Under the pieces are notes generated by a model, which was not told the DNA's origin, searched no databases, and was given only the letters and a program-made list of their open reading frames with translations. DNA of 64,000 nucleotides from Curtobacterium sp. L6-1. GTDB lineage: Bacteria > Actinomycetota > Actinomycetes > Actinomycetales > Microbacteriaceae. The position numbers and the translations under genes were made by a program. The stretch spans positions 1,054,001 to 1,118,000 of the forward strand of contig NZ_CP076544.1 of assembly GCF_018885305.1 (NCBI RefSeq). Direction: 5' to 3'. Shown here piece after piece: positions 7,295 through 28,037 of the stretch. Numbering within the stretch: the stretch's first letter is position 1; each line of letters starts with the position of its first letter.

Positions 7295-7349
7295 GCGGAC
7301 ACACGGCCGGCGCACCGGTCGAGGCGACGCAGCGGTGTCGCACCGCGAC

Positions 7350-7397
7350 GACGGACGGGAGGCCCGTGGCCAGCTGGCCACGGGCCTCCCGTCCGTC
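7350..7397. terminator. Perfect 48-base palindrome between ABC-F and SURF1 genes
   Basis: GACGGACGGGAGGCCCGTGG-CCAG is followed by its exact complement. It has the same family core as the element after sufT, with GTGG/CCAC replacing GGTGCC/GGCACC symmetrically, a compensatory change that preserves the hairpin. It separates convergent genes and could terminate both. Confidence 0.75.
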
Positions 7398-7435
7398 ACG
7401 TGACGCGTGGGCGCGTCCGTCGGCCCGGTGGCGCG

Positions 7436-8404
7436 TCAGCGCCTCGACTCGAGCAGCTCGTCCTCGACCTCGTCGTCGGACTTGGGCTTCGCCTCGCGGC
7501 GGCGCTGCCGGTCGAGGGCGCGCACGCGCTCCTCGGGGTCGTCCTGGTTGAGGTTCCGGTACTCCTGCACCATGACGTAGGCGAGGAAGCCGAACCCGCC
7601 GACGGCGAAGAGGAACCACTGGATGAAGTAGCTGAGGTGCAGGCCCGTGTCCGCGCTCGGTCGGTCCCATCCGAGCGGGCGCGCGTCCGGAGGCGCCGGG
7701 GTCTCGCTGTCGAGCTGTCCGTAGGCGCCGGTCCAGATCGGGTGCCCGGCCTTCGCGGCGACGTCGTCGAGGGTCACCGACTGCACCTGGTCGGAGTCGG
7801 CCGGGTCGGTGCGGCCGGGGATCCGCGGTTCGGACTCCTGCAGACGGACGACGGCGGTGACCGAGCCGCTCGGCGGTTCCGGGATGCTGTCCGGTCGGTC
7901 CTGCCGGTTGCCCGTGGGCACCCAGCCGCGGTCGACGATGAACGCGCGGCCCTCGGCGGTCACGAGGGGGGTGAGCACCTCGAAGCCCGGCTGGCCGTTG
8001 TGCACGCGGTTGCGGACGAGGAGCTGGTGGTCGGTGTCGTACTGCCCGGTGACCTCGACACGGAGCCAGGTGAGGTCGTCGTGCCACGTGCCGGCACGGG
8101 GGAGCACGCCGTCGACCGGGAACGGTGCGTGGTCGTAGTTCGCCGCGATCTGCTCGTTCTGGCGGACGGCCTCGTTGCGGCGGTCCCACTGCCACATGCC
8201 GAACAGGGCGCAGACGATCGCGAACGCCACGGCGATGGCGAAGTACCCGAGCCACCGGCGGCTGCGGACGAAGCGCCACCCGACGGACGGGTCGTCCGGG
8301 TCGGTGGACGGACCGTCCGCGGTGGAGGTGCTGGTGCTGGCGTGACGGATCCGGGCAGCGTGTCGCCGCCCGTACCGTGATCCGGGATCGAACCCGTCCG
8401 TCAT
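7436..8404 (-). CDS. SURF1 family cytochrome oxidase assembly protein
   Basis: SURF1/Shy1 proteins help insert heme a into cytochrome c oxidase. The 322-residue product has the family topology: a first membrane segment at about residues 52-70 ending in GMWQWDRR, a long extracytoplasmic domain containing the conserved FEVLTPLV and GRAFIVDRGWVP, and a second membrane segment at about 257-279. The C-terminal tail is charged and cytoplasmic. The ATG overlaps the stop of the upstream small gene (ATGA), so translation is coupled. A function in heme-copper oxidase assembly fits with the ctaA gene at the window start. The N-terminal 40 residues are Ser/Thr/Asp-rich and probably disordered. Confidence 0.9.
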   Translation of the reverse strand: MTDGFDPGSRYGRRHAARIRHASTSTSTADGPSTDPDDPSVGWRFVRSRRWLGYFAIAVAFAIVCALFGMWQWDRRNEAVRQNEQIAANYDHAPFPVDGVLPRAGTWHDDLTWLRVEVTGQYDTDHQLLVRNRVHNGQPGFEVLTPLVTAEGRAFIVDRGWVPTGNRQDRPDSIPEPPSGSVTAVVRLQESEPRIPGRTDPADSDQVQSVTLDDVAAKAGHPIWTGAYGQLDSETPAPPDARPLGWDRPSADTGLHLSYFIQWFLFAVGGFGFLAYVMVQEYRNLNQDDPEERVRALDRQRRREAKPKSDDEVEDELLESRR

Positions 8405-13473: not shown

Positions 13474-14256
13474 ATGCCCTCGGTCGTGCGCTTGTCAGAC
13501 GTCTCCGTGGTCCGCAACGGGGCCACCATCCTCGACGGGATCTCGTGGGAGGTGCAGGACGACCAGCGCTGGGTGGTGCTCGGTGCGAACGGTGCCGGCA
13601 AGACCACGTTGCTGCAGGTCGCCGGCGCGCAGACCTTCCCGACCTCCGGCGAGGTCGAGGTGCTCGGCACCGAGCTGGGCGGCGCCGACCTGTTCGACCT
13701 CCGCCCGCGCATCGGCTTCGCGTCGACCGCCCTCGCACGCCGCATCCCGGTGACCGAGAAGGTCATCGACGTCGTCCTGACCGCCGCGTACTCCGTCACC
13801 GGCCGCTGGAACGAGGAGTACGAGGAGCTCGACGTCCGTCGTGCCCAGCGGGTGCTCGAGGAGTGGGGCCTCGGCTCGTTCACCGAGCGGACCTTCGGCG
13901 AGCTGAGCGACGGCGAGCAGAAGCGCGTGCAGATCGCCCGGGCCGTCATGACCGACCCCGAGGTGCTCTTCCTGGACGAGCCGGCCGCCTCGCTCGACCT
14001 CGGCGCCCGCGAGAGCCTGGTCCGCACGCTCGGCGGCTACGCGCAGAGCGAGGACTCGCCGGCGATCGTCATCGTCACCCACCACGTCGAGGAGATCCCC
14101 GCGGGCTTCACGCACGCGCTCGTGCTCGCCGACGGGCACGTGCAGGCCGCGGGGCCCATCGACGAGGTCCTGACCGCCGAGACCCTGACCACCGCCTTCG
14201 GCGTCGAGCTCACCGTGTCGAAGGACTCCGGGCGCTGGACCGCCCGGGCCGTCTGA
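13474..14256 (+). CDS. Orphan ABC transporter ATP-binding protein (YlmA/ModF-like)
   Basis: The 260-residue product is a single ABC ATPase domain. Walker A GANGAGKTT is at residues 37-45, the signature is LSDGEQKR (near 143-150, with Asp in place of the usual Gly), and Walker B is VLFLDEPAASLD followed by THHVEEIP. No permease or binding-protein gene is adjacent, which fits the stand-alone ATPase group of iron/molybdate-type sequences (YlmA, ModF-like). The role is therefore unknown; it may partner with a distant permease or act as a non-transport ATPase. No ribosome binding site precedes the start, in line with a leaderless message. Confidence 0.88.
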   Translation: MPSVVRLSDVSVVRNGATILDGISWEVQDDQRWVVLGANGAGKTTLLQVAGAQTFPTSGEVEVLGTELGGADLFDLRPRIGFASTALARRIPVTEKVIDVVLTAAYSVTGRWNEEYEELDVRRAQRVLEEWGLGSFTERTFGELSDGEQKRVQIARAVMTDPEVLFLDEPAASLDLGARESLVRTLGGYAQSEDSPAIVIVTHHVEEIPAGFTHALVLADGHVQAAGPIDEVLTAETLTTAFGVELTVSKDSGRWTARAV

Positions 14257-14297
14257 CACGCCCGGCTCCGACGCTCCCGATCGTCGCCGTCGTCTGG

Positions 14298-14303
14298 TAA
14301 CGT
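14298..14303 (+). promoter_or_regulatory. -10 box for rpmE
   Basis: TAACGT predicts a transcript start near 14310 and a leader of about 57 bases before the rpmE start codon. Confidence 0.4.
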
Positions 14304-14310
14304 GGACGGC

Positions 14311-14322
14311 TGGCGTACGCCA
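14311..14322. promoter_or_regulatory. Perfect 12-base palindrome at the rpmE transcription start
   Basis: TGGCGTACGCCA immediately follows the predicted start point, a position suited to a repressor. It does not resemble the AT-rich Zur box that often controls zinc-free L31 genes. Confidence 0.35.
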
Positions 14323-14366
14323 CCGACTTCCCATCTTCCGTCATCGCGATCCACCGAGGAATCCCC

Positions 14367-14615
14367 ATGAAGACCGACACCCACCCCGAGTACCGCGCCA
14401 TCGTCTTCCGTGACCTGGCTTCCGGTGAGACGTTCCTGACGCGTTCGACCGCGAACAGCGACAAGACCATCGAGCTCGACGGTGCGACCTACCCGGTCAT
14501 CGACGTCGAGATCTCGTCCGCCTCGCACCCGTTCTACACGGGCAAGCAGCGCATCCTCGACTCCGCCGGCCGCGTCGAGAAGTTCAACCAGCGCTTCAAG
14601 GGCTTCAGCAAGTAG
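14367..14615 (+). CDS. rpmE2: 50S ribosomal protein L31 type B (zinc-free form)
   Basis: The 82-residue product is L31 type B. It has the [11 protein letters not shown] terminus, the [10 protein letters not shown] motif and the FNQRFKGF end. None of the four zinc-binding cysteines of type A L31 is present, so this is the C-minus paralogue that replaces the zinc form when zinc is scarce. Such genes are commonly under Zur control, but no recognisable Zur box is present. The start is preceded by GAGGAA. A hairpin terminator begins 31 bases after the stop. Confidence 0.95.
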
Positions 14616-14645
14616 GTCCACCGCACCCACGGGTGCCGGTACCGC

Positions 14646-14683
14646 CGAACGGGCGGTCCTCCTCCGGGAGGGCCGCCCGTTCG
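14646..14683 (+). terminator. Terminator after rpmE2
   Basis: CGAACGGGCGGTC pairs with GGCCGCCCGTTCG (one G-U pair) across a short purine-rich loop. It lies between rpmE2 and the convergent end of the Ter operon, so it may serve both directions. Confidence 0.72.
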
Positions 14684-14704
14684 TGTGTCCCGGCTCCGGT
14701 CCGG

Positions 14705-15526
14705 TCAGGCGGGTGTGCGCTCCGCTGCCACAGCGGCGGCCGCGAGCCCGATGAGCTCCTCGCCCGCGAGTACCCCCTGAGCGCTCGTGACGCGCAGGTT
14801 CGGCGCCGTCCACCCCACCGCGTGCAGCTCGCCGTGCGCGGGACGGATCGCGACGTCGGCCCACGCGAGCATCTCGCGGTCGAGCAGGGAGTCGCCGGCG
14901 GCGATCGTCCGCGTGGCCCCGATCCGCTCCGCCACCGCGGCCAGGGCCCGTTCCTTGCGGATCGGGACCGGGACGGCGTAGAGCTTGCGCCCCTGCACCG
15001 AGACCCGCCACCCGAGTGCGGCCAGATCGGCGGCGAAGGCCTCGACGGCGGTGTCCGGCAGTTCCGCGCGGTCGACGATGGCGTACACGAACAGGTCCTC
15101 GGCGCGGCGGGCGCGGAGGACGGCACCCGGGGGCAGTCCGGTCGCGAATCGCTCCTCGACCTCGGGCAGCGGCGCGGACACCGCGGTCATCTCGGTCCGG
15201 AGCGTCGCGGTCCAGTCCGCGTCGGGCTCGCCGTCGTGCAGCACGACGGCGCCGTTCGTCGTGACCGCCCACCCGGTGTCCGGCAGGGGGAGGCGGATTC
15301 GGCGGTACTGCGCGACGGTGCGGGTCGTCACGGGGACGACGACGGCCTCCGCCGCGAGGGTCGCCAGCGCGCGTTCCGCGGTGCGGGTCATGAACGACAG
15401 CGGCAGGCCCTGGTAGACCTCGGTGACGACGAGGGACGGTGCGGCCTCGTCGGGGCCGTCGAGCATGAGCGCAGCGGACGAGTACACGACGGTGCGGTCG
15501 AGGTCGAACCCGACGAGCGCGGTCAC
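14705..15526 (-). CDS. HAD-superfamily phosphatase of the Ter biosynthetic module
   Basis: This 273-residue HAD hydrolase is the last gene of the Ter operon. The nucleophile motif is DLDRT at residues 8-12, and the acidic C-terminal motif is AAGDSLLDREML near 220. An alpha/beta cap domain lies between them, as in sucrose-phosphate-phosphatase-like HAD enzymes. The GTG at 15526 overlaps the stop of the phosphoribosyltransferase gene (GTGA). In the published comparative analysis of Ter systems, a HAD phosphatase of this kind accompanies the phosphoribosyltransferases and the citrate-lyase-like enzyme, and is proposed to remove phosphate from a nucleotide-like intermediate. That pathway is predicted, not proven. 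Confidence 0.85.
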   Translation of the reverse strand: MTALVGFDLDRTVVYSSAALMLDGPDEAAPSLVVTEVYQGLPLSFMTRTAERALATLAAEAVVVPVTTRTVAQYRRIRLPLPDTGWAVTTNGAVVLHDGEPDADWTATLRTEMTAVSAPLPEVEERFATGLPPGAVLRARRAEDLFVYAIVDRAELPDTAVEAFAADLAALGWRVSVQGRKLYAVPVPIRKERALAAVAERIGATRTIAAGDSLLDREMLAWADVAIRPAHGELHAVGWTAPNLRVTSAQGVLAGEELIGLAAAAVAAERTPA

Positions 15527-18315
15527 GCCTCGGCTCCGGTCGTCGTCGCCGGGGTGGCGGTCGCGTCCGTCACGCGGCTGCCGAGCGGGTGGATGAGCCC
15601 CACGCAGCTGTAGGACAGGACGGGGCGCGTCACGACGGGGACGCCCCGCTCGCGGGCGAGGGCGACCACGTGCGCGATGTCGACGTCGTCCGGGTCGCGC
15701 ACGAGCACCTGCCACGGCACGCGCCGGAGCAGCACGCGGGTGGTCTCGCCGACGCCCGGCTTGACGAGGTGCAGGTCCGCGATGCCGTACTCGGCACCGA
15801 TTGCCTCGACGGTGCGCATGCCGCGCCAGTCGACCGCGCGGGCCGCGGGGCCGCCGTCGGCCGCCACGGCTGCGTCGACCCGGGGTCGGACGGCGTCGAA
15901 CCGGTCGGCGATCGTCGCGACGAAGGAACGGGAGCGGTCACGGCCGGCGAGCTCGCGGTACTGCTTCGCGCCGTGCAGGGTGCCCTCCGGCGTCCAGGCC
16001 CCGTTGAACACGGTGCGGGACACCAGCCCGGACACCGTCGAGTTGAGGCAGGCGGACGGCACGAGGTAGTCGTCGCGGGTGCCGTGCAGGGGCGTGCACC
16101 CGGCCGGGTCGGCCAGGACCGCCAGCTCGTCGCCGAAGCGCACACCGTCGGAGGCGGCGAACCGGTCCAGGGCGTCGGTCAGCTCCCGGGTGATCGCCCC
16201 CTTGCCGGTCCAGCCGTCGACGAAGACCACCTGGGTCGGGTCGTGGTGCGCGGCGAGCCAGCGGAGGGCGGTCTCGTCGATGCCCACCCCGCGGACGATG
16301 CTCGCCGTGTAGTGCTCAAGGGACACGCCACGCTGCTCGGCGGCCCAGCGCCGCATGAGGATCCCGACCGGGGTGCCGGCACGGGCGAGCGACACGAGCA
16401 CCGCGCGCGGGCGGTCGCGGAGGACGAGGTCGGTCACGATGCCGACCGCCTCGGCGATCCGGTCCGCCGAGCGGTCGAGGGCGTCGCGGTAGAGCTCCTC
16501 GTACGCCTCGGTCGGCACGTACTCGACGGGCAGGGACTCGGCGTAGTTCGCCCCCTCGAGCTGGATGGCCCGCTCACGGTCCGCGGTGTCCGCCTCGAGT
16601 GCGGCGTCCGCGAGGTCCTGCAGCAGCCAGGTGACGTCGTCGGGTTCGTAGGAGCCGAACGACGGGCCGGTGAGCGGGCGCGGGGCCGGTCGGTCCTCGG
16701 GTGCGTCGGACTGCAGCGCGCTCGTGACGAGCACCACGCGCGGGGTCACCGCGGCAAGCGTGTGCAAGAGGCCGTCGGGTCCGTCGAGCAGCGCCGTGTC
16801 GGTGCCCGGTTCGGGGAGGACGACGATCGCGTCGAATCCGTGCACGTTGTAGGCGAACCGGTCGCCCGGACCGTCCACCGTGACGTCGTGCGACCGGTGC
16901 CGGATGCCGGACCGGATCGGCCACGCCGGGTCGTCGAGCACGGCGACGGGGGAGCGGGTCGTCGTGGACGAGAGCACGTCGGCTCCGCTGCGGCGGCGGA
17001 GCGCGTCCGCCACGGCGAGCGGGGTCGCCATGTGCTCCTCGGTGCCGAGCACCAGGACGCGTCCGGCGTCGTCCCCGAGCACGGCGGCGACGTCGGCGGC
17101 GACGCCCTCCACGTCCGTGCGCGGCGTGCGCACCCGGGCGGCGGGCGTCCCGGTCCGGTCGACCGCGGTCGGAGCCGCCTCGACGACCGTCACCGACGAC
17201 GGACGGGAGGCGCGGGCCGGGGCCGGTGCGGACCTCCCGTCCGACGACGACGCCGTGTCGGCCTGGTCGGTAGCGGTGTCGGTGTCGGTAGCGGTAGCGG
17301 TCGCGGTCGTGGTCGCCGGGCCGGCGTCGGGCGTGCCGCCCGTGAGCGGCGCGGCCGCGGTGGCGACGAGCTCCGCGGCGGTCGTGGTCAGCCCCGCGGG
17401 CAGCGTCACGTGCCCGCGACCGAGCGCGACGACCGCGACGGGCGCGCCGAGCTCGGCGGCGAGGGCCTCGGTCGCGGCGACGTCCGCGTCGGACCGCAGG
17501 TCGACGAGCGCGGCGACGACCCACTGCCGCTGCGGTGCGAGCGCGTGCAGGGCACGGATCGTGGCGCGGGCGGTGGCGCCGGTGCTCAGCTCGTCATCGA
17601 CGAGGACCACGGTGCCGTCGGCCGGCAGCCAGTCGTCCTCGGCCGGCAGCAGTCGGTGGGCGGTGGCGTGCGAGTGCGCCTCGTCGAACCCCGCGGCGGG
17701 GGTGGCACCGGCGGGGTCGTGTCGGGTCGAGTGCAGGGTGGCGGCGCCGAGGGACTCGGCCACCAGGGCGCCGAGTGCGGTCGCCGTCTCCGCGAAGCCG
17801 AGGACCAGGGCGTCCGAGGTCAGGGGGCGGACGGCGGCGAGGTCCGTGCGGAGGGTCGTCGCGGACCGGTGCAGCGCATCGTGACGGTCCACGGCGGCGG
17901 CGTCCCCGGTGCGGGCGGGGTCGGCTGGTCCCGAGCGGGTGGACGGCGCGTCCTCGGGGGCGGACCCGGTACCGGCGGCGGCGGCCTGCGCGTCGAGCAC
18001 GGCACGGAGGCGCGCGGCGGCCGTGGCGTCGAACCGCGCCCCGCCGTCGAGGACGTCGGCCACCCGGGCACCGAGCGCCTCGCCGGCGAGCAGGGCGACC
18101 GCGGGGACCGTCGGCACGTGCTTGGCCAGGACAGTCGACACGAGCAGGTGGGCGCGCTTCGGGTTCCGACGCAGCGCCAGCCGCACCAGGGACGACAGCG
18201 GCACCCCGGGAGCGCCGGTCGTCGCGGTCGCGGCGTCGTCGACGAGGGTCACGCCGAGGTCGGCGGGCGTCGGCAGGCTGGTCGGCAGGCTGGTCGTGGT
18301 CGTGGTCGTGGTCAC
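15523..18315 (-). CDS. Fused double phosphoribosyltransferase (PRTase-TRSP + PRTase-PELOTA) of the Ter operon
   Basis: This 930-residue protein joins two enzymes usually encoded separately in Ter loci. The N-terminal half is a phosphoribosyltransferase with the PRPP loop VLVDDELSTGAT near residues 235-247, followed by a TRSP domain whose name-giving TTTRSPVAV motif is at about 450-458. The second half is the other Ter phosphoribosyltransferase (once misnamed StiP protease), with VSLARAGTPVGILMRRW near 640-657 and VVFVDGWTGKGAITREL near 694-711. A PELOTA-type RNA-binding domain ends the protein (about 868-905). The GTG at 18315 overlaps the previous stop; the N terminus is a Thr run. A low-complexity linker at about 318-380 contains a palindromic repeat in frame. 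The expected role is base-ribose transfer to make a nucleoside-like molecule. Confidence 0.85.
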   Translation of the reverse strand: MTTTTTTTSLPTSLPTPADLGVTLVDDAATATTGAPGVPLSSLVRLALRRNPKRAHLLVSTVLAKHVPTVPAVALLAGEALGARVADVLDGGARFDATAAARLRAVLDAQAAAAGTGSAPEDAPSTRSGPADPARTGDAAAVDRHDALHRSATTLRTDLAAVRPLTSDALVLGFAETATALGALVAESLGAATLHSTRHDPAGATPAAGFDEAHSHATAHRLLPAEDDWLPADGTVVLVDDELSTGATARATIRALHALAPQRQWVVAALVDLRSDADVAATEALAAELGAPVAVVALGRGHVTLPAGLTTTAAELVATAAAPLTGGTPDAGPATTTATATATDTDTATDQADTASSSDGRSAPAPARASRPSSVTVVEAAPTAVDRTGTPAARVRTPRTDVEGVAADVAAVLGDDAGRVLVLGTEEHMATPLAVADALRRRSGADVLSSTTTRSPVAVLDDPAWPIRSGIRHRSHDVTVDGPGDRFAYNVHGFDAIVVLPEPGTDTALLDGPDGLLHTLAAVTPRVVLVTSALQSDAPEDRPAPRPLTGPSFGSYEPDDVTWLLQDLADAALEADTADRERAIQLEGANYAESLPVEYVPTEAYEELYRDALDRSADRIAEAVGIVTDLVLRDRPRAVLVSLARAGTPVGILMRRWAAEQRGVSLEHYTASIVRGVGIDETALRWLAAHHDPTQVVFVDGWTGKGAITRELTDALDRFAASDGVRFGDELAVLADPAGCTPLHGTRDDYLVPSACLNSTVSGLVSRTVFNGAWTPEGTLHGAKQYRELAGRDRSRSFVATIADRFDAVRPRVDAAVAADGGPAARAVDWRGMRTVEAIGAEYGIADLHLVKPGVGETTRVLLRRVPWQVLVRDPDDVDIAHVVALARERGVPVVTRPVLSYSCVGLIHPLGSRVTDATATPATTTGAEA
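17196..17248. repeat. Palindromic element inside the phosphoribosyltransferase gene
   Basis: GGACGGGAGG and CCTCCCGTCC form perfect ten-base arms around a 22-base GC-rich loop, extended outward by near-pairing flanks. The arms are those of the intergenic terminator family. Here the element lies inside a reading frame and encodes DGREARAGAGADLPS-like residues on one strand and, in the gene, a Ser/Ala/Pro/Arg-rich linker between the PRTase and TRSP domains. Confidence 0.65.
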
Positions 18316-19477
18316 GGGAGGCTCCGCTCGAGCAGGTCGACGTAGGTCACGTCCGGGGTGGTCACACCGAACGCCCGGGCGCGGAGCATCGTGCGCTCCG
18401 CCCAGGCGTGGTGCGGCTTCATCTCGTTCATCTTGTTGCCGTAGCGCGAGGCCGCGACCCCGCCCGTGGCGTTCGCGAGCACGTCGGACGCGTCGGAATA
18501 CTCCTCGTCGCTTACCACCGACATCGCGTGCACGAGCGGCACGTGGCGCGGGTGGATGACGGTCTTGCCGGTCAGGCCGTTCGCACGGTCGAGCGTGACC
18601 TCGCGGAGGAGCCCGTCGAAGCCCTCGAGCAGCAACTGGCGGCGCAGCTGGAGGTCGCCGGCCTCCTGGAACGGCGTCGTGCGCAGCTGCGTGCGGAACA
18701 CCCGGTCGGAGTCGGGGTAGTGCTCCCACACCGGACCGGCGACGACGAAGCCGTCCCGGGCCCGCCCGAGGACGTTCACCACGTCGCCGATCACCGAGGC
18801 GAGCACCTGCACGTCGTGAACCGTCAGGTGCGACGGACGCCGCAGGCCGTACACGCTCGACAGGTCGGTCGCGCCGATCCGCACCGCGAGGACGTCGCTG
18901 CGCCGGGCGAGGAGCAGCTCGCGGACGTCGGCGAGGGCCTCGGTCCGCGACTCCCGGTGCATGATCGCCGGCGACTCGAGGATCGGCATGACGAGCAGCC
19001 GTCGGGCGGCGGGTCGTCCGGCGTTCGCGGCGTCGAGCACCTCGAACCACCGGGCGCCGGACTCCGGGCCGTCCTCGAACTTCGGGAGCACGACACCGCT
19101 CAGTGCGTCGAGCGCCCGGTCCCCGAGCCGGTCGAGGAGCCGCGCGAAGTGGTCGGGCGTCCGGACCCGGAGGAACAGCTGCGGCAGCGTCGCCGCGTCG
19201 ACGTCCTCGGACAGGGTGCGGAGGGCGGCCTCGACGTTCGCCTCGGCCGTCGGCAGGTCGTCGTCGGCCACCGAGTCCTCGAGGCAGAGCACGATCGACC
19301 CGGCGCCGAGCTCGGTCTGCCGTCGGACGTCACGGACGAGGTCGGGCCGGATCCCCGGCGTGTAGAGCGTCGCGCCGAGGGCGACGGCCCGGAGGTCCTG
19401 GTCGCTGTCCCGCGTGACGTCCTCGGGGCTCGGAGGAACAGGGCGTCCTGTTCGGGGAGGTTGGCGAAGTGGCGCAC
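18312..19477 (-). pseudogene. HpcH/HpaI (citrate lyase beta-like) TIM-barrel enzyme of the Ter operon, frameshifted near its start
   Basis: The downstream frame encodes a clear citrate-lyase-beta-like TIM barrel (VALGATLYTPGIRPDLVRDV, SIVLCLEDSVADDDL, VRTPDHFARL, IGATDLSSVYGLRR, KTVIHPRHVPLVHAMSVVSDEEY). It has no start codon in frame. The typical N terminus of the Ter family (MRHF...LF..) is present at 19477-19430 in another frame: GTG-CGC-CAC-TTC, reading MRHFANLPEQDALFLRAP. One added base in the C4 run (G4 on the plus strand, 19425-19428) joins the frames and gives 388 residues, the usual size. The start lies three bases after the previous stop, and the stop overlaps the next GTG. This is either a sequencing or assembly error or a recent inactivating deletion. 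The enzyme is thought to perform an aldol-type or C-C bond step in the Ter metabolite pathway. Confidence 0.8.
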
Positions 19478-19480
19478 GGG

Positions 19481-20565
<1,085 letters not shown>

Positions 20566-20569
<4 letters not shown>

Positions 20570-21126
20570 CGTGCGCGGCCGATGCCGTGGTCGGCGCGCA
20601 GTCCGGCCAGCCCGGTCGTGTAGCCCTGCCCGACGGCGCGGAACTTCCACTCGGCACGGTGGCGGTACAGCTCGCCGAGGATGACCGCGTCGATCTGGTG
20701 GTTGCGCTCGGACGGCAGTGGGAACACGAGCAGCTCACGGCCGTCGGGGGCGCACACCCGCACGCGCATCGACCGGACCGAGCCGAGGTCCTTCGGGGAC
20801 CGCGGGTCCGGGTCGAGGTAGAGCGCGAACACGATCTTGTCCACGGTGTCCGGGACCGAGGCGAAGTCGACGTCGATCTCCTCCTGGTCCGATTCGTCCA
20901 GGTACCGGACCGAGGCGTCGGCGCTCTCGACCTGGTTGAAGAACACGAGGTCCTCGTCGGACAGGACCCGGCCGTCCGGCCCGCAGACGATCGCGACGGG
21001 GACGAGTTCGGCGGACGGACCGCGGCTCGCGATCTGGTCCCAGTGGATCCCGACCACGACCGAGGTCAGCCCGGGGTTCTCCGCCGTCAGGGCCGCGTTC
21101 GCGCCGGGGACGAGCTGCCCGGTCAC
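20566..21126 (-). CDS. TerD-family protein lacking the calcium-binding motifs
   Basis: The 186-residue product aligns with TerD along its length. It has GIHWD at the position of GLGWD, LVFFNQ at FIFYNQ, and the intact C-terminal block HRAEWKFRAVGQGYTTGLAGL. The two acidic motifs that bind calcium are gone: DLDAS is replaced by ELVPV (residues 40-44), and the GDGDDE region reads DESDQEE (77-83). It is therefore a divergent paralogue, probably a structural partner rather than a calcium sensor. The GTG overlaps the stop of the upstream gene, and its own stop overlaps the next ATG. Confidence 0.85.
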
Positions 21127-21694
21127 GAGTCCGCTCCGCGGAGGCGCAGCCCCTCGTCGCCCTCGCCGAGGCGGTCCCGGAGGAAGCGTCCGTGCGAGGA
21201 GAGTTCGGCGATGGCGCCACTCCGGATCTGTTCGTGCATGTCCTCCACCGTCTCCGCGACGACGTCGAGTTGGCCGGCGAGGGTCGCCGTGGCGGTGCTG
21301 TCCGGGGTACGGTCCGACGGGGGAGGGACCGGTAGGTGCGGACGGGCGTGGGCAGGTAGTCGTCGACGATCGCCTGGAACAGGTACCGCTGCTCGGTCGA
21401 CGCGCCACGGGCGACGACGGTGCCGGCGGCCTCGCGGAGGAGGTCCTCGACGTGGCGCACGCGCGAGGACACGACGGTGGGCAGCTCGGCACCGGCGGCA
21501 CGGACGAACGCCCGCAGGTCGTCGAGGCCGGCGGCGGCACTGGCGTCGTCCGCCGCGCCTCCGGAGCCCCGGACGTCGATCCGGGCCGCCGCGGCGGCCG
21601 CGGCCGACGCCGGGGTCACGGCGTCGGGGTCGGCGACCTGACGGTCCTGGTCGTCGTCGTCGCGGCCGAACAGCGCACGCAGTCGATCACGCAC
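21123..21694 (-). pseudogene. Small Ter-operon protein, split by an apparent one-base deletion
   Basis: The N-terminal frame starts with GTG at 21694 and reads MRDRLRALFGRDDDDQDRQ... to RTYRSLP. The continuation, with coding-like sequence DVVAETVEDMHEQIRSGAIAEL and a stop overlapping the next GTG, lies in another frame. Adding one base in the G5 run at 21319-21323 joins them into a 190-residue protein. It is Ala/Asp-rich in the first third and helical with heptad-like charge in the rest (VRHVEDLLREAAGTVV). There is no recognised domain. It is just downstream of telA, so it may assist TelA. As with the citrate-lyase-like gene, a sequencing error in a G/C run is as likely as a true mutation. 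Confidence 0.7.
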
Positions 21695-21712
21695 GGGCGT
21701 GGACCGCGGTCG

Positions 21713-22933
21713 TCATCGCGTGACCGATCGCTGGTCGCCCTCACCCTGCCTGGCACGCTCCAGGTACGGCTTGGCGCGCTGGATGCCCGACTCGAGGGCG
21801 GTGACCGTCGACGACATGTTCTGCGCGGCCTGCGAGCGGAAGGAGTCGATCGCGTCCATGGTCTGGAACACGTTGTCGAACGCCTTCTGCAGGGTCTCGA
21901 CGCTGACGCCGGAGTTCGTCGCCTGCTCGTGGATGCGCGTGGTCTGGTCGCGGAGCATCTCGCTCGTCTGCAGGATCATCGCGTTCGTGGTGTTGTTCAC
22001 CGCGTCGATCTGGTCGAGGACCATCTTCTGGTTCGCGAGCGCCTGGGCGACGACGACGGCCGTGCGGAGCGCCGCGATGGTCGTCGTCCGGGCACGCTCG
22101 ACGCCCTTGATGAGCTCGGTGTTGTTCTTCCGGACGAGGTCCATCGCCAGGTAGCCCTGCACCGAGACGGCGAGCTGCGTCAGGATGTCCTGGTGCCGCT
22201 GGCGCACCGGGAAGAGCACGTCCGACTCGAGCTTCTGCGCCTCGTCCACGCGACCGCCGTTGCGGAGCGCCTCGATCTTCGACACGGTCGCCGCGTCGAG
22301 GGCCTTGGCGAACACGGCGTACTCGCTCAGCTGCTGCATGGTCTCCCACAGCTGGACCTTCTCGTCGGCGAGGGTGGCGTTGTCCTTGCGGAGCTCGTCC
22401 TGCCCGGCCATGAGCGACTTGATGATCTTGTCGAGCTGCGTCTGCGCCGACTCGTAGCGCTGGAAGTACTTCGCCAGCTTGTTGCCGCCGGGGATCATGC
22501 CGAGGATCTTCCGGCCCGTGCTGAGGTCCGCCTGGTTCGGCGTGAGGTCCTCGACGGTGGAGCGGAGGTCGCCGAGCGTGGTGGCGACCTTCACCTGGGC
22601 GTCGTCACCACTGCGCTTGGCACCCGAGACGCTGGACTGCGACCGCTCGAGCATCCGCGACGAGAACCCGCCGGAGCGGGCGATCTCGGAGCCGGCGATC
22701 GCGTTGATGCCGTCGACCTTCTCGGTGAAGGCCGGGGACCGCGGGTCGAGGCTCGCCACCTCGTCGACGAACTCCCGCGCCTGCGCCGCGATCTGCGACT
22801 GCCGCTCGGCGTCGACCGGGACCATCCCGGGGGCGTCGTCCGGCGTCACCACCTCGGCGGCGTCGGCGGCACGGAGGACGAGGGCGTCCTGGGACGGGTC
22901 GGTGGGCTCCGGCGGAGCGAGCGGTCCGGGCAT
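21713..22933 (-). CDS. telA: Toxic anion resistance protein TelA
   Basis: TelA/YceG-type proteins accompany TerD and TerC in stress and tellurite-response loci; they are soluble, helical, and of unknown biochemical action. The 406-residue product has the family blocks NKLAKYFQRYESAQTQLDKIIKSL, VFPVRQRHQDILTQLAVSVQGYLAMD, and KNNTELIKGVERARTTTIAALRTAV, followed by a long coiled region ending in IQRAKPYLERAR. The ATG at 22933 is preceded by AGGAGAC. The first 60 residues are Pro/Asp-rich and less conserved. It lies between the canonical TerD genes and the biosynthetic part of the operon. Confidence 0.93.
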   Translation of the reverse strand: MPGPLAPPEPTDPSQDALVLRAADAAEVVTPDDAPGMVPVDAERQSQIAAQAREFVDEVASLDPRSPAFTEKVDGINAIAGSEIARSGGFSSRMLERSQSSVSGAKRSGDDAQVKVATTLGDLRSTVEDLTPNQADLSTGRKILGMIPGGNKLAKYFQRYESAQTQLDKIIKSLMAGQDELRKDNATLADEKVQLWETMQQLSEYAVFAKALDAATVSKIEALRNGGRVDEAQKLESDVLFPVRQRHQDILTQLAVSVQGYLAMDLVRKNNTELIKGVERARTTTIAALRTAVVVAQALANQKMVLDQIDAVNNTTNAMILQTSEMLRDQTTRIHEQATNSGVSVETLQKAFDNVFQTMDAIDSFRSQAAQNMSSTVTALESGIQRAKPYLERARQGEGDQRSVTR

Positions 22934-22997
22934 CGGTTGTCTCCTGTGACGAGGTGGAACGGCTGGGTGCTGCTGGTGCGGGTCGGGGTCCGGCGGA

Positions 22998-23576
22998 TCA
23001 GCCGAGCTGGACGCCGAAGTCGGTCGCCACGCCCGCGAGGCCGGACTGGTAGCCCTGCCCGACGGCGCGGAACTTCCACTCGGCACCGCTGCGGTAGATC
23101 TCCGAGAAGATCATCGCCGTCTCGGGGGCTGCGTCCTCGGAGAGGTCGAAGCGCACGATCTCGGCGCCCTCCTGGTCGAGGACCCGCGAGTACGCGCTGC
23201 GCACCTGGCCGAAGTTCTGCCGGCGTGCTTCGCCCTGGTCGATCGAGACGACCACGACGACCCGCTCGACGTCGGCGGGGAGGGTCTGCAGGTCGATGAC
23301 GATCTGCTCGTCGTCGCCGTCACCCTGGCCGGTGCGGTTGTCGCCCTTGTGCTCGACGGACCCGTCGGCGCTCCGCGGCTGGTTGTAGAAGATGAAGTCG
23401 GCGTCCGAGCGGACCTTGCCGTCGGCGCCGACGAGGAGCGCGGACGCGTCGAGGTCGAAGGCCTCGCCGGCGGTGGTGCGCGGGTCCCAGCCGAGGCCGA
23501 CGGTCGCCACGGTGAGTCCGGGGCTCGTCTTCGTGAGCGAGAGGTTGTTGCCCTTGGTGAGGGAGAGTCCGGCCAT
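22998..23576 (-). CDS. terD: TerD-family calcium-binding stress protein (first copy in coordinate order)
   Basis: This 192-residue canonical TerD protein has GLGWDPR at residues 27-33, DLDASALLVG at 41-50 with the calcium-ligand aspartates, and the second acidic motif GDNRTGQGDGDDE at 78-90. The end GAEWKFRAVGQGYQSGLAGVATDFGV is typical. TerD proteins bind calcium through these loops and are thought to act at the membrane with TerC. GGAAGGACCG precedes the ATG. The neighbouring terD gene at 23642 is about two-thirds identical by eye, so the pair arose by duplication. Confidence 0.94.
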   Translation of the reverse strand: MAGLSLTKGNNLSLTKTSPGLTVATVGLGWDPRTTAGEAFDLDASALLVGADGKVRSDADFIFYNQPRSADGSVEHKGDNRTGQGDGDDEQIVIDLQTLPADVERVVVVVSIDQGEARRQNFGQVRSAYSRVLDQEGAEIVRFDLSEDAAPETAMIFSEIYRSGAEWKFRAVGQGYQSGLAGVATDFGVQLG

Positions 23577-23641
23577 GATCGGTCCTTCCGGGTTGGTGGT
23601 GCGCTGTCGGTCGTGCAGTGGCGTCGTTGCGGTGACGGACG

Positions 23642-24223
23642 TCAGTCGAGCACGACGCCGTAGTCGGTGGCCACGCCGCGGAGGCCGGTGGCGTAGCCCT
23701 GGCCGACGGCGCGGAACTTCCACTCGCCGTCGTACCGGTAGATCTCGGCGAAGATCATGCCGGTCTCCGAGGCGGCGTCCTCGGTGAGGTCGAAGCGGAC
23801 GACCTCGTTGCCGGACTCGTCGTTGACGACGCGGCAGAACGCCCCGCGCACCTGACCGAAGTTCTGGTGCCGGGCGTCGGCCTGGTCGATGGTCACGACG
23901 ATGACGACCCGCGCGACGTCCGCCGCGACCAGGTCGAGGTCGATGAGGATCTGCTCGTCGTCCCCGTCGCCGTCACCCGTGCGGTTGTCGCCCTGGTGGA
24001 CCACCGAACCGTCGGTCGACTGCAGCTGGTTGTAGAAGATGAAGTCGTCGTTCGAGCGCACCTTGCCGTCCGCGCCGACGAGCAGCGCGGAGGCGTCGAG
24101 GTCGAACTGCTCGCCCGCCGTGGTGCGCGGGTCCCAGCCGAGGCCGATCATCGCCCGGCGCAGGCCGGGGTCGGTCTTGGTCAGGGAGAGGTTGTTGCCC
24201 TTCGAGAGCGAGAGGGTCGCCAT
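23642..24223 (-). CDS. terD: TerD-family calcium-binding stress protein (second copy)
   Basis: The product is 193 residues and closely resembles its neighbour, with the same leader MxxLSLxKGNNLSLTKT, DLDASALLVG at 41-50 and GDNRTGDGDGDDE at 78-90. Differences cluster in surface strands and near RGAFCRVVNDESGNE. A GAAGGAC ribosome binding site precedes the ATG, and the upstream spacer resembles that before the other terD copy, which suggests tandem duplication including the spacer. Function is as for other TerD proteins: calcium binding in a membrane-associated stress complex. Confidence 0.94.
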   Translation of the reverse strand: MATLSLSKGNNLSLTKTDPGLRRAMIGLGWDPRTTAGEQFDLDASALLVGADGKVRSNDDFIFYNQLQSTDGSVVHQGDNRTGDGDGDDEQILIDLDLVAADVARVVIVVTIDQADARHQNFGQVRGAFCRVVNDESGNEVVRFDLTEDAASETGMIFAEIYRYDGEWKFRAVGQGYATGLRGVATDYGVVLD

Positions 24224-24279
24224 CGATCGTCCTTCCGTCGGTGCTGTGGTGCTGTCGGTCGTGCCGAGACGGCCCGCGG

Positions 24280-24867
24280 TCAGAGCGCCGCTGCCGCCGG
24301 CCCGACCATGTCCTGCACGGTGCGGCCGTCGGCGCGCTCACCGATCGCGGTGAAGGTCCAGCCTGCTCCGGTGCGGGCCACCTTCGCCATGACCATCGCG
24401 GTGTGCGGCCCGGCGTCGGTGAGCTGGTAGCGCGCGACCTCGGGGGCGCCTGCGGTCGAGTCGTCGACGACGCGGCAGAAGGCGTTCTGCACGTTGTCGA
24501 ACGTCTGCCGGCTGTAGCTGCTGATCACGAAGACGATCTGGGCGACGGCGCCGTGCACGGCCGAGAGGTCGATGCGGATGACCTCGTCGTCGCCGTCCCC
24601 GTCACCGGTCAGGTTGTCGCCGGTGTGCTGGGCTGAGCCGTCCTTGCTGCGCAGCTGGTTGAACCAGACGTAGTCGACCGGCTGGCCGTCGGCGCCGAAG
24701 AAGATCGCCGACGCGTCGAGGTCGACGTCCGCGGCCTTGCGTCCGCCGAACAGGCCGCGCTTCGTGGCGACCGCGTCCCAGCCGAGACCGAGCCGGACGC
24801 GCGTGAGGGCGCTCCCGTCGTTCTTGGTGAGCGAGAGCGCTTGGCCCTTCTGGAGGCTGAGACCCAT
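24280..24867 (-). CDS. terZ: TerZ-type member of the TerD family
   Basis: This 195-residue TerD-family protein shows features of the TerZ branch: the GLGWDAVATKRGLFGGRKAADVDLDAS insertion before the first acidic motif (DLDAS at 49-53), and the SSYSRQTFDNVQNAFCRVVDD segment matching the TerZ pattern of N-x2-N-A-x-C/Y-R. Both calcium motifs are intact (DNLTGDGDGDDE at 84-95). The C terminus lacks the WKFRAVGQGY block and reads GWTFTAIGERADGRTVQDM, as in TerZ. The gene lies between terC and the two terD copies. I assign TerZ by motif recall, not by a tree. Confidence 0.85.
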   Translation of the reverse strand: MGLSLQKGQALSLTKNDGSALTRVRLGLGWDAVATKRGLFGGRKAADVDLDASAIFFGADGQPVDYVWFNQLRSKDGSAQHTGDNLTGDGDGDDEVIRIDLSAVHGAVAQIVFVISSYSRQTFDNVQNAFCRVVDDSTAGAPEVARYQLTDAGPHTAMVMAKVARTGAGWTFTAIGERADGRTVQDMVGPAAAAL

Positions 24868-24922
24868 TGCGGTGAACCCTTCGTCGTGGTCGGTCGTGGT
24901 GGGGACGTCGGCCCCGGTGGTG

Positions 24923-26053
24923 TCAGGAGGCGACGGTCGCCCGGTCACCGGCGGGCTCGTGCTCGCCGGCCTTGCGCTTGTTGCGGACCACCGACGAGAT
25001 GAACGCGGCGAGGATGAAGACGACGCCGATGAGGCCGGTGACGACCTCGTTCACCTCGGTGGTGATCGTGACGAGCAGGATCGCCGCGAGTGCACCGATC
25101 GCCCAGTGCGCACCGTGGTCGAGGTACTCGAACTCGTCCAGCGTGCCCTGTCGGACCAGGAAGACGGTGAGAGACCGGACGAACAGCGCACCGATCAGGC
25201 CGAGGCCCAGGGCGATGATGATCGGGTCGGCGGTGATCGCGAAGGCGCCGATGACGCCGTCGAACGAGAACGACGCGTCGATGACCTCGAGGTACAGGAA
25301 GAGCAGGAACGCGGCCTTGCCGGCGACGTTGCCGACGCGGCGCTTGGCGCTGATGCGGTTCGCCTCGGCCACCATCTCGCCGGTGGTCTCGAACGAGTTG
25401 CCGTCGTCCTCCGGGTCGTCGACGTCGAACAGGCCGCCGAGTCCGGTGACCAGGAAGTACGTCACGAGACCGGCGATGCCCGCGACCAGGACCGTGGACT
25501 GGTGGTCGCCCGCGGTGGTGCCCGCGACGGCGAGGACGGCGAGGGCGACGACGACGTTCACCATCGGGAGCTTGCCGATGAAGAGCAGCGGGCGCTCGAG
25601 CCAGGTGAGCCAGAGGATCTCGCGCTCCTCGAACATGAAGTCGAGGAAGATCATGAGCAGGAACATGCCGCCGAACGCAGCGATCTGCGGGTGCGCCTCG
25701 TGCAGGAGGTACGCGTAGGTGCCGGGCTCGTCGATCGGGCCCTTCTCGAGCGCGAGCTGCACGGCCTCGACCGGGTTGAGCGACGCCGTGACACCCACGA
25801 TGAGCAGCGGGAACAGCACGCGCATGCCGAAGACGGCGATGATGATGCCCACGGTGAGGAACATCTTCTGCCAGAAGGGGTTCATCCGCTCGAGGATGCG
25901 GGCGTTGACGACCGCGTTGTCGAAGCTGAGGCTGATCTCGAGCACGCCGAGGATGGCGGTGATGATGACCGCGCTCCACCCGCCGTAGACGAGTGCGATC
26001 GCGAGGGCGAGCACGGTGATGGCCAGTGACCACCCGAAGGTCTTCAGGAACAC
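24923..26053 (-). CDS. terC: TerC/DUF475-family integral membrane protein
   Basis: The 376-residue product has about nine membrane segments. The paired motif typical of the TerC superfamily appears twice: EISLSFDNAVVNA at residues 39-51 and EVIDASFSFDGVIGAF near 258-273, each with acidic residues inside the membrane. The sequence belongs to the DUF475 branch. Known relatives function in metal efflux, particularly manganese, during membrane protein insertion; in Ter systems TerC is thought to be the membrane anchor for TerD proteins. The GTG at 26053 follows AGGGGAGA at good spacing. This is the first gene of the Ter operon, 69 bases after the exonuclease gene. Confidence 0.92.
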   Translation of the reverse strand: MFLKTFGWSLAITVLALAIALVYGGWSAVIITAILGVLEISLSFDNAVVNARILERMNPFWQKMFLTVGIIIAVFGMRVLFPLLIVGVTASLNPVEAVQLALEKGPIDEPGTYAYLLHEAHPQIAAFGGMFLLMIFLDFMFEEREILWLTWLERPLLFIGKLPMVNVVVALAVLAVAGTTAGDHQSTVLVAGIAGLVTYFLVTGLGGLFDVDDPEDDGNSFETTGEMVAEANRISAKRRVGNVAGKAAFLLFLYLEVIDASFSFDGVIGAFAITADPIIIALGLGLIGALFVRSLTVFLVRQGTLDEFEYLDHGAHWAIGALAAILLVTITTEVNEVVTGLIGVVFILAAFISSVVRNKRKAGEHEPAGDRATVAS

Positions 26054-26122: not shown

Positions 26123-26881
26123 CTACATGCTCGGCACCGGGTGGCGACGGGGCCAGCGGCCGTCCGCGGTGAACGACGGGTCGCGCTTCGACCGCATGTA
26201 CTCCTGGAAGGACGCGGCCTGCTCGGAGCACCAGACGACCTGCTTGCGGTGGAGCTCCTCGGCGGTGATCGCGAGTTCGTCCGGGTAACGGGCGGCGATG
26301 GCCTGCGCGACCCGTCCGGCCGCGACCGCGTCGGCACCGGCGTCGTGCGCGTCGTCGAGGGTGACGCCGTAGAGCTGCGACGCCGCCTCGAGCGTGCGCT
26401 TGCCCTTCCGGTAGGTGTCGAGCGCCTTGTCCATGACGAGTGGATCGACGACGTTGCCGATGACGGGGGAGGCGATGCCGTGCCGCTTGGCCTCCCGGTC
26501 GAGGAGGGTCAGGTCGTACGGGGCGTTGTAGATCACGAGCGGGATGCCGCGGGCGAAGACGGCCTCGACCGCGGCGACGATCTCCGCGACGACCTCGCCC
26601 GCCGGGCGTCCCTCGGCACGGGCGCGCTCGGTCGTGATGCCGTGCACCGCCGACGCCTGCTCGGGGATCTCGACGCCGGGGTCGGCGAGCCACGCCCCCT
26701 CGACGATGGAGCGCCCGGTCATGTCGATGAGGCCGACGTGCGCGGTCACGATGCGGGCGGTCTCGACGTCGATGCCGGTGGTCTCGAGGTCGAACACGCC
26801 GAGCGCGTGCCACCACGGGCGGCTCGTCAGGTCCTGCGGGGGTCGGGTCGTCGGGTCGATCGCGGCGGCGGGGGAGGTCAC
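26123..26881 (-). CDS. DEDDh 3'-5' exonuclease (DnaQ-like)
   Basis: This 252-residue stand-alone exonuclease domain is of the DnaQ/epsilon type. The catalytic Asp31 and Glu33 are in FDLETTG, the second Asp is in YNAPYDLTLL, and the final His/Asp pair is in LDDAHDAGADAVA. It is much shorter than a DNA polymerase subunit and lacks the C-terminal polymerase-binding tail, so it is probably an independent DNA or RNA trimming nuclease. The GTG at 26881 is preceded by TAGCCT six bases upstream on the minus strand, which suggests a leaderless message. It lies upstream of terC in the same orientation, with a 69-base gap; whether it shares the Ter transcript is unclear. Confidence 0.9.
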   Translation of the reverse strand: MTSPAAAIDPTTRPPQDLTSRPWWHALGVFDLETTGIDVETARIVTAHVGLIDMTGRSIVEGAWLADPGVEIPEQASAVHGITTERARAEGRPAGEVVAEIVAAVEAVFARGIPLVIYNAPYDLTLLDREAKRHGIASPVIGNVVDPLVMDKALDTYRKGKRTLEAASQLYGVTLDDAHDAGADAVAAGRVAQAIAARYPDELAITAEELHRKQVVWCSEQAASFQEYMRSKRDPSFTADGRWPRRHPVPSM

Positions 26882-26893: not shown

Positions 26894-26950
26894 GCCAACC
26901 GCACCGACACGACCACGCGCGGCGCGCGCCGGACGTCCGGTGGCCGTCCC

Positions 26951-26956
26951 TAGACT
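26951..26956 (+). promoter_or_regulatory. -10 box of a leaderless hydrolase transcript
   Basis: TAGACT is followed by seven bases and the ATG at 26964. This start is preferred over the in-frame ATG at 26940, which would precede the promoter. Confidence 0.45.
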
Positions 26957-26963
26957 GACGCCG

Positions 26964-28037
26964 ATGCAACCGCCCGTGCTGTCCCCGTACCAGTCGCTCA
27001 TGGCGGCCGTCCCCGTCGTGCACCGCTCGGTCCTGGTCGGCGGCCGGACCACGCACTTCTGGGAGTACGGCCCCACCGCCGACGTCCCGAGCACCGACGG
27101 TGCCGCTGCCATCGACGTCCCGACCGCCGACGCTGCCGCGGCCGCCGTCGGCCCGACCGGCCGGACCCCGCGCCGTGCCCCGGTGACCGTGCTCGCGGTG
27201 CACGGCTTCCGCGGCGACCACCACGGGCTCGAGTCCCTCGCCGCGCACCTCGTCGCCGGCCACCCGGAGGGCGTCCGCGTGCTCGTGCCGGACCTGCCCG
27301 GGTTCGGCGTGTCCGACCCGCTGCCCGTCTCGGACCTCGACGCCTACGTACACTGGCTCGACGGCTTCCGCACCGCGCTCGGCCTCGACCGCGAGACCGT
27401 CGTCCTCGGCCACTCGTTCGGGTCGATCGTCGTCGCGGCCGCCGTCGCCGCCGGGCTCGACACCCGCCTGCTCGTCCTCGTGAACCCGATCGCCGCCCCG
27501 GCCCTCCAGGGTCCACGTGCCGTGGGGACCGGGATCGCGATCGCGTACTACCGCCTGGGCGCACGGCTACCACGGGCGCTCGGGCTCGGCCTGCTCCGCA
27601 ACCGCGGCATCGTGCGCGCGATGAGCGTCGCGATGCTCAAGTCGCGCGACCCGGAGCTGCGGCGCTGGGTGCACGACCAGCACGACCGCTACTTCTCGGC
27701 CTTCGCGAACCGGACGAGCGTCCTCGAGGCGTTCCGGACCTCGGTGACGCACGACGTCTCGGAGTTCGCCGACCGCATCACGACGCCGGTGCTCATGGTC
27801 GCCGCCGAGCACGACGACATCACCGCCGTCCCGGAGCAGCGCGCCCTCGCGGCCCGGCTCCACGACGCCGAGCTCGTCGTCGTCCCGGGCGTCGGCCACC
27901 TCGTGCACTACGAGACGCCCGCCGAGGCGGCCGCCGCCGTCCTCCGGCGCGTGCGGGAGCCGGCCACGTCGGCCACGCGAGCCCGTCCGCGGAAGCGTGG
28001 GGGCGCCTCCCGGCAGGACGCGGGGGACCGCTCGTGA
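26964..28037 (+). CDS. Alpha/beta hydrolase
   Basis: This 357-residue alpha/beta-hydrolase-fold protein has the oxyanion-side motif VHGFRG, the nucleophile elbow GHSFGS (Ser near residue 150), the acid in VAAEHDDITAVPEQ and the catalytic His in VPGVGHLVHYE. A low-complexity Ala/Pro/Asp segment at about 35-65 is probably a surface loop. The substrate is unknown. Its stop overlaps the start of the following glycosyltransferase gene (GTGA), so the two are co-translated. The pairing may point to lipid or glycolipid metabolism, but nothing in the sequence names the substrate. Confidence 0.88.
   Translation: MQPPVLSPYQSLMAAVPVVHRSVLVGGRTTHFWEYGPTADVPSTDGAAAIDVPTADAAAAAVGPTGRTPRRAPVTVLAVHGFRGDHHGLESLAAHLVAGHPEGVRVLVPDLPGFGVSDPLPVSDLDAYVHWLDGFRTALGLDRETVVLGHSFGSIVVAAAVAAGLDTRLLVLVNPIAAPALQGPRAVGTGIAIAYYRLGARLPRALGLGLLRNRGIVRAMSVAMLKSRDPELRRWVHDQHDRYFSAFANRTSVLEAFRTSVTHDVSEFADRITTPVLMVAAEHDDITAVPEQRALAARLHDAELVVVPGVGHLVHYETPAEAAAAVLRRVREPATSATRARPRKRGGASRQDAGDRS

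Follow-up and report, generated by a model that had tools for sequence, protein, structure and literature searches.

The 64,000-nucleotide stretch analysed here (the window) lies on contig NZ_CP076544.1, the single contig of the 3.4 Mb genome of Curtobacterium sp. L6-1 (GCF_018885305.1), and contains at positions 14705–26053 a stress-response system of the known tellurite-resistance (Ter) kind, complete and conserved, in compact form. Eleven co-directional genes, all on the minus strand, place terD-, telA- and terC-type genes next to a biosynthetic module of phosphoribosyltransferase (PRTase), haloacid dehalogenase (HAD) and lyase genes; the nearest relatives at this locus are Curtobacterium. 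An earlier note on this DNA had claimed such a coupling, which is supported by domain content, conserved gene order and the joint presence or absence of the two halves. With a probability of roughly 0.6, we infer that a riboside or ribosylated acceptor derived from phosphoribosyl pyrophosphate (PRPP) acts with a TerD/TelA/TerC-type membrane complex.

Gene content and layout

Read from 26053 to 14705, the locus begins with a TerC-superfamily membrane protein of 376 residues (24923–26053; PF03741, E 8e-15). The label terC given by the earlier note holds for the superfamily and not for the branch: the best family is DUF475 (PF04332, E 3e-126), to which the protein scores 421 bits against 55 bits to TerC, whereas TerC of the IncHI2 plasmid R478 (NC_005211.1) scores 145 bits to the TerC model. 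The protein also matches NF010613 at 536 bits, above the cutoff of 385. Three TerD-domain genes follow, encoding a TerZ-like protein (24280–24867; PF02342, E 2e-47), a TerD (23642–24223; PF02342 match in the search of its own genome) and a second TerD (22998–23576; PF02342, E 7e-79; PDB 3ibz, E 6.5e-79, and 2kxt, E 1.6e-71). In the alignment, these three of the four TerD-domain genes keep the acidic loops, which we take to be calcium loops, calcium binding being putative. TelA (21713–22933; PF05816, E 4e-85), the sole match to its family in the genome at E ≤ 0.001, is followed by a small gene with no Pfam family (21124–21694) and by the fourth TerD-domain gene (20566–21126; PF02342, E 2e-43), which lacks acidic loops and is the degenerate terD of the earlier note. 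The adjoining linker gene (19481–20569) encodes an N-terminal basic motif, a Ser/Gly/Pro/Ala linker with GLSLx motifs, and a C-terminal TerD-fold domain.

The biosynthetic module consists of a C–C bond lyase with a citrate-lyase/HpcH-like triosephosphate isomerase (TIM) barrel (18312–19477; PF15617, E 5e-110; malyl-CoA lyase 4l9y, E 3e-5), a four-domain fusion PRTase_2-TRSP-StiP-PELOTA (15523–18315; PF15609-PF12500-PF11202-PF15608) and a HAD phosphatase of the sugar-phosphatase type (14705–15526; motifs DLDRT and GDSLLD; trehalose phosphatase 6cj0, E 1e-13). The HAD protein matches PF08282 and PF05116 below the model cutoffs. The claimed fused phosphoribosyltransferase is present, the PRTase_2 and StiP domains lying in one open frame. 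A hairpin terminator-like element (14648–14681, no strand assigned), just after the HAD stop, lies at the 3' boundary. Six gene junctions are gaps of 3–65 bases, and four are overlaps of 4 bases (GTGA or ATGA), namely small gene/loop-less TerD, loop-less TerD/linker, lyase/fusion and fusion/HAD; the ten junctions agree with the description of eleven genes on one strand that mostly overlap or lie within 65 bases. The eleven genes are likely one transcription unit.

Ter systems are associated with an ATP-grasp ligase of their own type, which we do not treat as defining; none was found among the operon genes scanned or in the five scanned genes of the R478 module. The genome has one match to PF15632 (ATP-grasp), at 31.8 bits (cutoff 29.1) and covering only 65 of 131 positions, in a frame of 1391 residues about 80 kb away; the model also gives matches in 13 of 14 control genomes. 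No PADLOC defence model matched at E ≤ 0.01 among the nine operon proteins scanned, and no mobile-element family among the operon proteins scanned. The exonuclease encoded upstream of the operon matches PADLOC DEDDh and PDC-S48.

Conservation and joint inheritance

One scan gave 21 related loci (L002–L022), and the subset L002–L011 and L014 constitutes the eleven relatives. The order of twelve genes, including the upstream exonuclease, is identical in all eleven; because order and content are the same throughout, the layout is not due to chance. Of 66 Curtobacterium genomes, 20 have StiP, and these same 20 have TerD, neither occurring without the other; inheritance looks all-or-none at one chromosomal site. 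In the eleven relatives the cassette sits between the same exonuclease and a gene for an 82-residue protein. These two genes are adjacent in all ten non-carriers examined (L071–L080, picked from 46 for few contigs), with 187–893 bases between the matched parts, and the hairpin of the 3' boundary is also found in at least eight of these gaps.

In a tree of five flanking proteins from eleven carriers, the window included (L008 was omitted, its flank lacking), and ten non-carriers, carriers occur in at least three places. Within the group that contains the window, the operon's own tree resembles this one, apart from the position of the window itself, which has weak support (0.55). To judge from these trees, repeated loss and exchange through the flanks would both fit the scattered carriers. 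In the ten non-carriers, homologues of the window's hydrolase (26940–28037) and exonuclease (26123–26881) genes are separated by about 1.8–2.2 kb; the two genes lie only about 50–75 bases apart in the window, L002 and L009. Genome G017 (locus L099) is a divergent Curtobacterium carrier with three TerD matches, a weaker TelA and a linker protein aligned over part of the domain, and its version was possibly acquired separately. In six carriers (G011, G020, G026, G030, G031 and G044) another part of the genome gives one more, weak TerD-domain match (E 1e-5 to 8e-5).

Among other Microbacteriaceae carriers (seven genera, Curtobacterium included), the order small gene, TerD, linker, lyase recurs as in the window in 17 of 19 loci, L099 and L100 having part of it only. 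Many of these carriers encode PRTase and StiP in separate genes, in contrast to the fusion in the window.

Two genes in the window are broken in frame. The small gene shifts frame after about 125 codons (at about 21,320–21,340), whereas all eleven relatives have it as one open frame of 184–190 codons. In the lyase gene the shift falls close to the N-terminus (at about 19,430), in a region that is open in all eleven. What had been described as a small protein and as the lyase start are thus not whole genes in this assembly.

The StiP fusion and the linker protein

The StiP domain belongs to its family with high significance (PF11202, E 1e-94). In the structural model, StiP-PELOTA is predicted to adopt a PRTase-like fold, and the best structural match of the StiP model is CriT, a ribofuranosyltransferase that works with a HAD phosphatase. 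The PRTase_2 domain of the same polypeptide has an intact PRPP-type motif. The PRPP loop of StiP in the window reads VVFVDGWTGKGAI, with DGWTGKGAI invariant in 29 sequences; a Cys in the stretch PSACLNSTVSG is likewise invariant in 29 of 29 aligned sequences. On the model, StiP would work like a type I phosphoribosyltransferase, and we do not file it as a classical one.

Of 40 loci, 22, the window included, encode PRTase_2 and StiP in a single open frame, and the other 18 do not (L028 was judged by TRSP, its PRTase_2 lying outside its stretch). Fused and split forms occur both inside and outside Microbacteriaceae; outside the family, the Streptomyces, Kitasatospora and Nocardia loci are fused, and those of Spirilliplanes, Pseudonocardia and Mycolicibacterium are split. 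The fusion is a recurrent variant and not a new invention. In Curtobacterium MCBA15_001 (L014:10001–13329), PRTase_2 is in another frame than TRSP-StiP, and several hundred additional bases separate the matched parts. Among 72,556 plasmid records, 2566 carry a relative of StiP; among 50,697 phage records, 3 do, and two of these are the same phage. One unannotated phage record of 15 kb (MT836648.1) has a StiP relative of 43% identity at 7241–8179.

The linker gene has no match in any Pfam or NCBIfam model. It had been described by its Ser-Gly linker, which is present, but the conserved parts are the N-terminal motif, GLSLx and the TerD-fold domain, not the Ser-Gly tract. We compared 35 sequences, comprising the window, the eleven relatives, the sequences of 19 StiP carriers, L018 and L047–L049. 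Most of the N-termini have a stretch like DLPYLRRR or GHPYLRRR. The GLSLx-type motif, which was picked after inspecting the sequences, occurs 49 times in 27 of the 35 linkers; in 500 shuffles the mean count was 1.2 and the highest 5. Its similarity to the first TerD strand (GLSLTKG in the TerD of the window) suggests, without proving it, that GLSLx docks to TerD-fold partners. All 19 StiP carriers tested have the linker protein, as they have TelA, and among 299 Microbacteriaceae genomes the 19 with StiP are the same 19 with the linker protein. The link is looser outside the family, where only L018 has both among ten loci (L012, L013 and L015–L022), within the stretches examined. A classwide sample gave 4 convincing linker-protein matches in 394, the window's own included.

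The C-terminal domain of the linker protein can be partly placed: it has the TerD fold and may be related, through intermediates, to the C-terminal domain of TerA. Its profile matches a protein of the Spirilliplanes locus L018 (E 7e-9), which is 48% identical to the TerA C-terminal domain. Against a six-sequence profile of that domain, hhalign gave 96.5% (E 1e-9), a score inflated by five members that had first been found with the linker profile. The R478 protein annotated "TerD family protein" is, from its gene order, presumably TerA. With 385 residues, it runs from a TerD half without loops through a Pro-rich linker to another TerD-related domain, the same order as in the window. The two halves do not lie in one polypeptide in the window, which has instead two overlapping genes, a longer linker with GLSLx motifs and a different N-terminal basic motif.

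Descent of the loop-less TerD and linker pair from a split TerA was considered and dropped: scored against the TerD-like half of R478 TerA, ordinary TerDs reach 81 and 67 bits and the loop-less gene 61 bits. The loop-less TerD is 40% identical to the window's second TerD and 31% identical to that half, a lower figure than ordinary TerDs give. Since the loop-less gene resembles ordinary TerD more closely than TerA, and since L018 holds both the pair and another TerA-C-like gene, descent by splitting is not claimed and the pair is kept as a "TerA-like arrangement". The mechanism favoured below does not depend on such a descent. In L018, positions 14219–20000 carry TelA, the small gene, the loop-less TerD, the linker protein and the separate TerA-C-like gene, all within about 8 kb of the StiP module of that locus. 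Locus L050 encodes, in one open frame, a TerD domain joined to a TerA-C-like domain by a long Pro-rich linker in which an ALDLG motif occurs, and this gene adjoins a relative of the small gene.

Proposed function and comparison with known systems

A paper on jumbo phages (PMC7824862) describes Ter as the synthesis of a nucleoside-type signal with TerB and TerD as sensors and with TerC and the sub-membrane parts TelA and TerF. That such a module yields a nucleoside-like metabolite is a prediction of the 2012 analysis that defined Ter systems. In 2021, PMC7824862 and PMC8115787 still give the product as predicted and name no molecule; PMC12054061, of 2025, words it as shown, citing the same 2012 analysis, and reports Zn, Mn and phage phenotypes for terC. 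In the mechanism we favour, the fusion protein would use PRPP twice, through PRTase_2 and StiP, and place ribose-5-phosphate on an acceptor that the C–C lyase helps to prepare, and the HAD enzyme would remove the 5-phosphate. The resulting riboside or ribosylated acceptor would be sensed by calcium-loaded TerD and TerZ in concert with the loop-less TerD, the linker protein and TelA. Jointly with the TerC-like membrane protein, these proteins may act on the handling of metals and on the entry of toxic anions or phage at the envelope. From its composition and motifs, the linker protein would be a flexible tether that connects several TerD-fold partners.

Several observations weigh against this reading. 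Foldseek at E ≤ 0.001 gave no match for the linker domain and, for StiP, two matches that are both cysteine desulfurases at a template modelling (TM) score of about 0.2. Against R478 TerA alone, the linker domain gave 0.2% in hhalign and at most 1.8 bits; that protein is also not among the matches of the linker-domain profile search; a relation to the second half of TerA is thus unsupported by R478 TerA directly, and its remaining basis is the L018 bridge and the fold. The paired acidic residues are absent from the PRPP loop of StiP, where DG replaces the classical pair; CriT likewise has no vicinal acidic pair and relies on D680 and E818, which belong to two loops. The two frame breaks, finally, may mean that the operon is decaying in this isolate or that the sequence is wrong.

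The Ter half could alone be the working unit, conferring metal and tellurite tolerance, with an unrelated biosynthetic half that merely shares its promoter. The opposite strands of the two halves in R478 agree with this, as does the finding that terZ–F suffices for tellurite resistance in Klebsiella (PMC8115787), but we consider it unlikely, since TerD and StiP are never apart in Curtobacterium and the linker protein tracks StiP across the family sample. Separate transcripts for the two halves, named by the earlier note as a refutation of the coupling, would be a weak one, because of the strand arrangement in R478 and because the Klebsiella locus is likewise described as two operons on opposite strands (PMC8115787).

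StiP is named a cysteine protease in Pfam and plasmid annotations, and its invariant Cys would suit a stress proteolysis or RNA-binding device in place of a biosynthetic pathway. This is quite improbable given the PRTase-like fold of the model, the fusion to another PRTase whose PRPP motif is intact, and the lyase and HAD genes that accompany StiP in 21 of 21 loci (L002–L022). Still more speculative, and in our judgement very improbable, is that StiP-PELOTA would be an O-ribofuranosyltransferase of the CriT kind acting on an RNA hydroxyl held by a K-turn-type PELOTA domain, with HAD trimming the 5-phosphate; the Ter "metabolite" would then be a ribosylation of RNA induced by stress instead of a free nucleoside, read or delivered at the membrane by the TerD/linker-protein/TelA complex. 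There is, lastly, a small chance that the operon is a decaying remnant in Curtobacterium sp. L6-1 and that only its relatives run the pathway. Two frame breaks within 11 kb point that way, and the carriers scattered among non-carriers on the flank tree are compatible with repeated loss; the nine remaining genes are nevertheless open, and single-base indel errors are a usual cause of such breaks in one-contig assemblies such as this.

As far as our searches extend, what is new is that the module is tracked by a TerD-fold partner, the linker protein, that the two halves are strictly inherited together, that StiP can be read from its model as a putative PRTase/CriT-like enzyme, and that two genes are broken in frame. 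The locus offers a small co-directional Ter version in which a partly placed orphan gene tracks the biosynthetic module. Its natural presence/absence control allows the Ter product to be sought in one genus whose members carry or lack the whole set, and the CriT-CrpP precedent (PRPP plus HAD) turns "nucleoside-like" into an assay.

CriT-CrpP of Bcs3, the Haemophilus influenzae b capsule polymerase (8a0c), also pairs a PRTase-like fold with a HAD phosphatase. It differs in serving capsule synthesis, in having no PELOTA domain and in an identity of 6% over 200 aligned residues; the likeness is an analogy of chemistry, not of system. The Ter genes of Acinetobacter phage vB_AbaM_ME3 include a StiP relative under features annotated as phosphoribosyl transferase and haloacid dehalogenase, but they lie in a phage genome and the relative has 29% identity. 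R478 shares with the window the Pfam set of PRTase_2-TRSP, HAD, StiP-PELOTA and C–C lyase, together with TerZ, TerC and TerD proteins. Its halves lie on opposite strands, in contrast to the single strand of the window, and its PRTase and StiP are separate proteins, in contrast to the four-domain fusion. R478 has TerB, a one-piece TerA, a classical TerC and a DUF4236 gene, whereas the parts that set the window apart are TelA, the pair of loop-less TerD and linker protein, and the DUF475-branch membrane protein.
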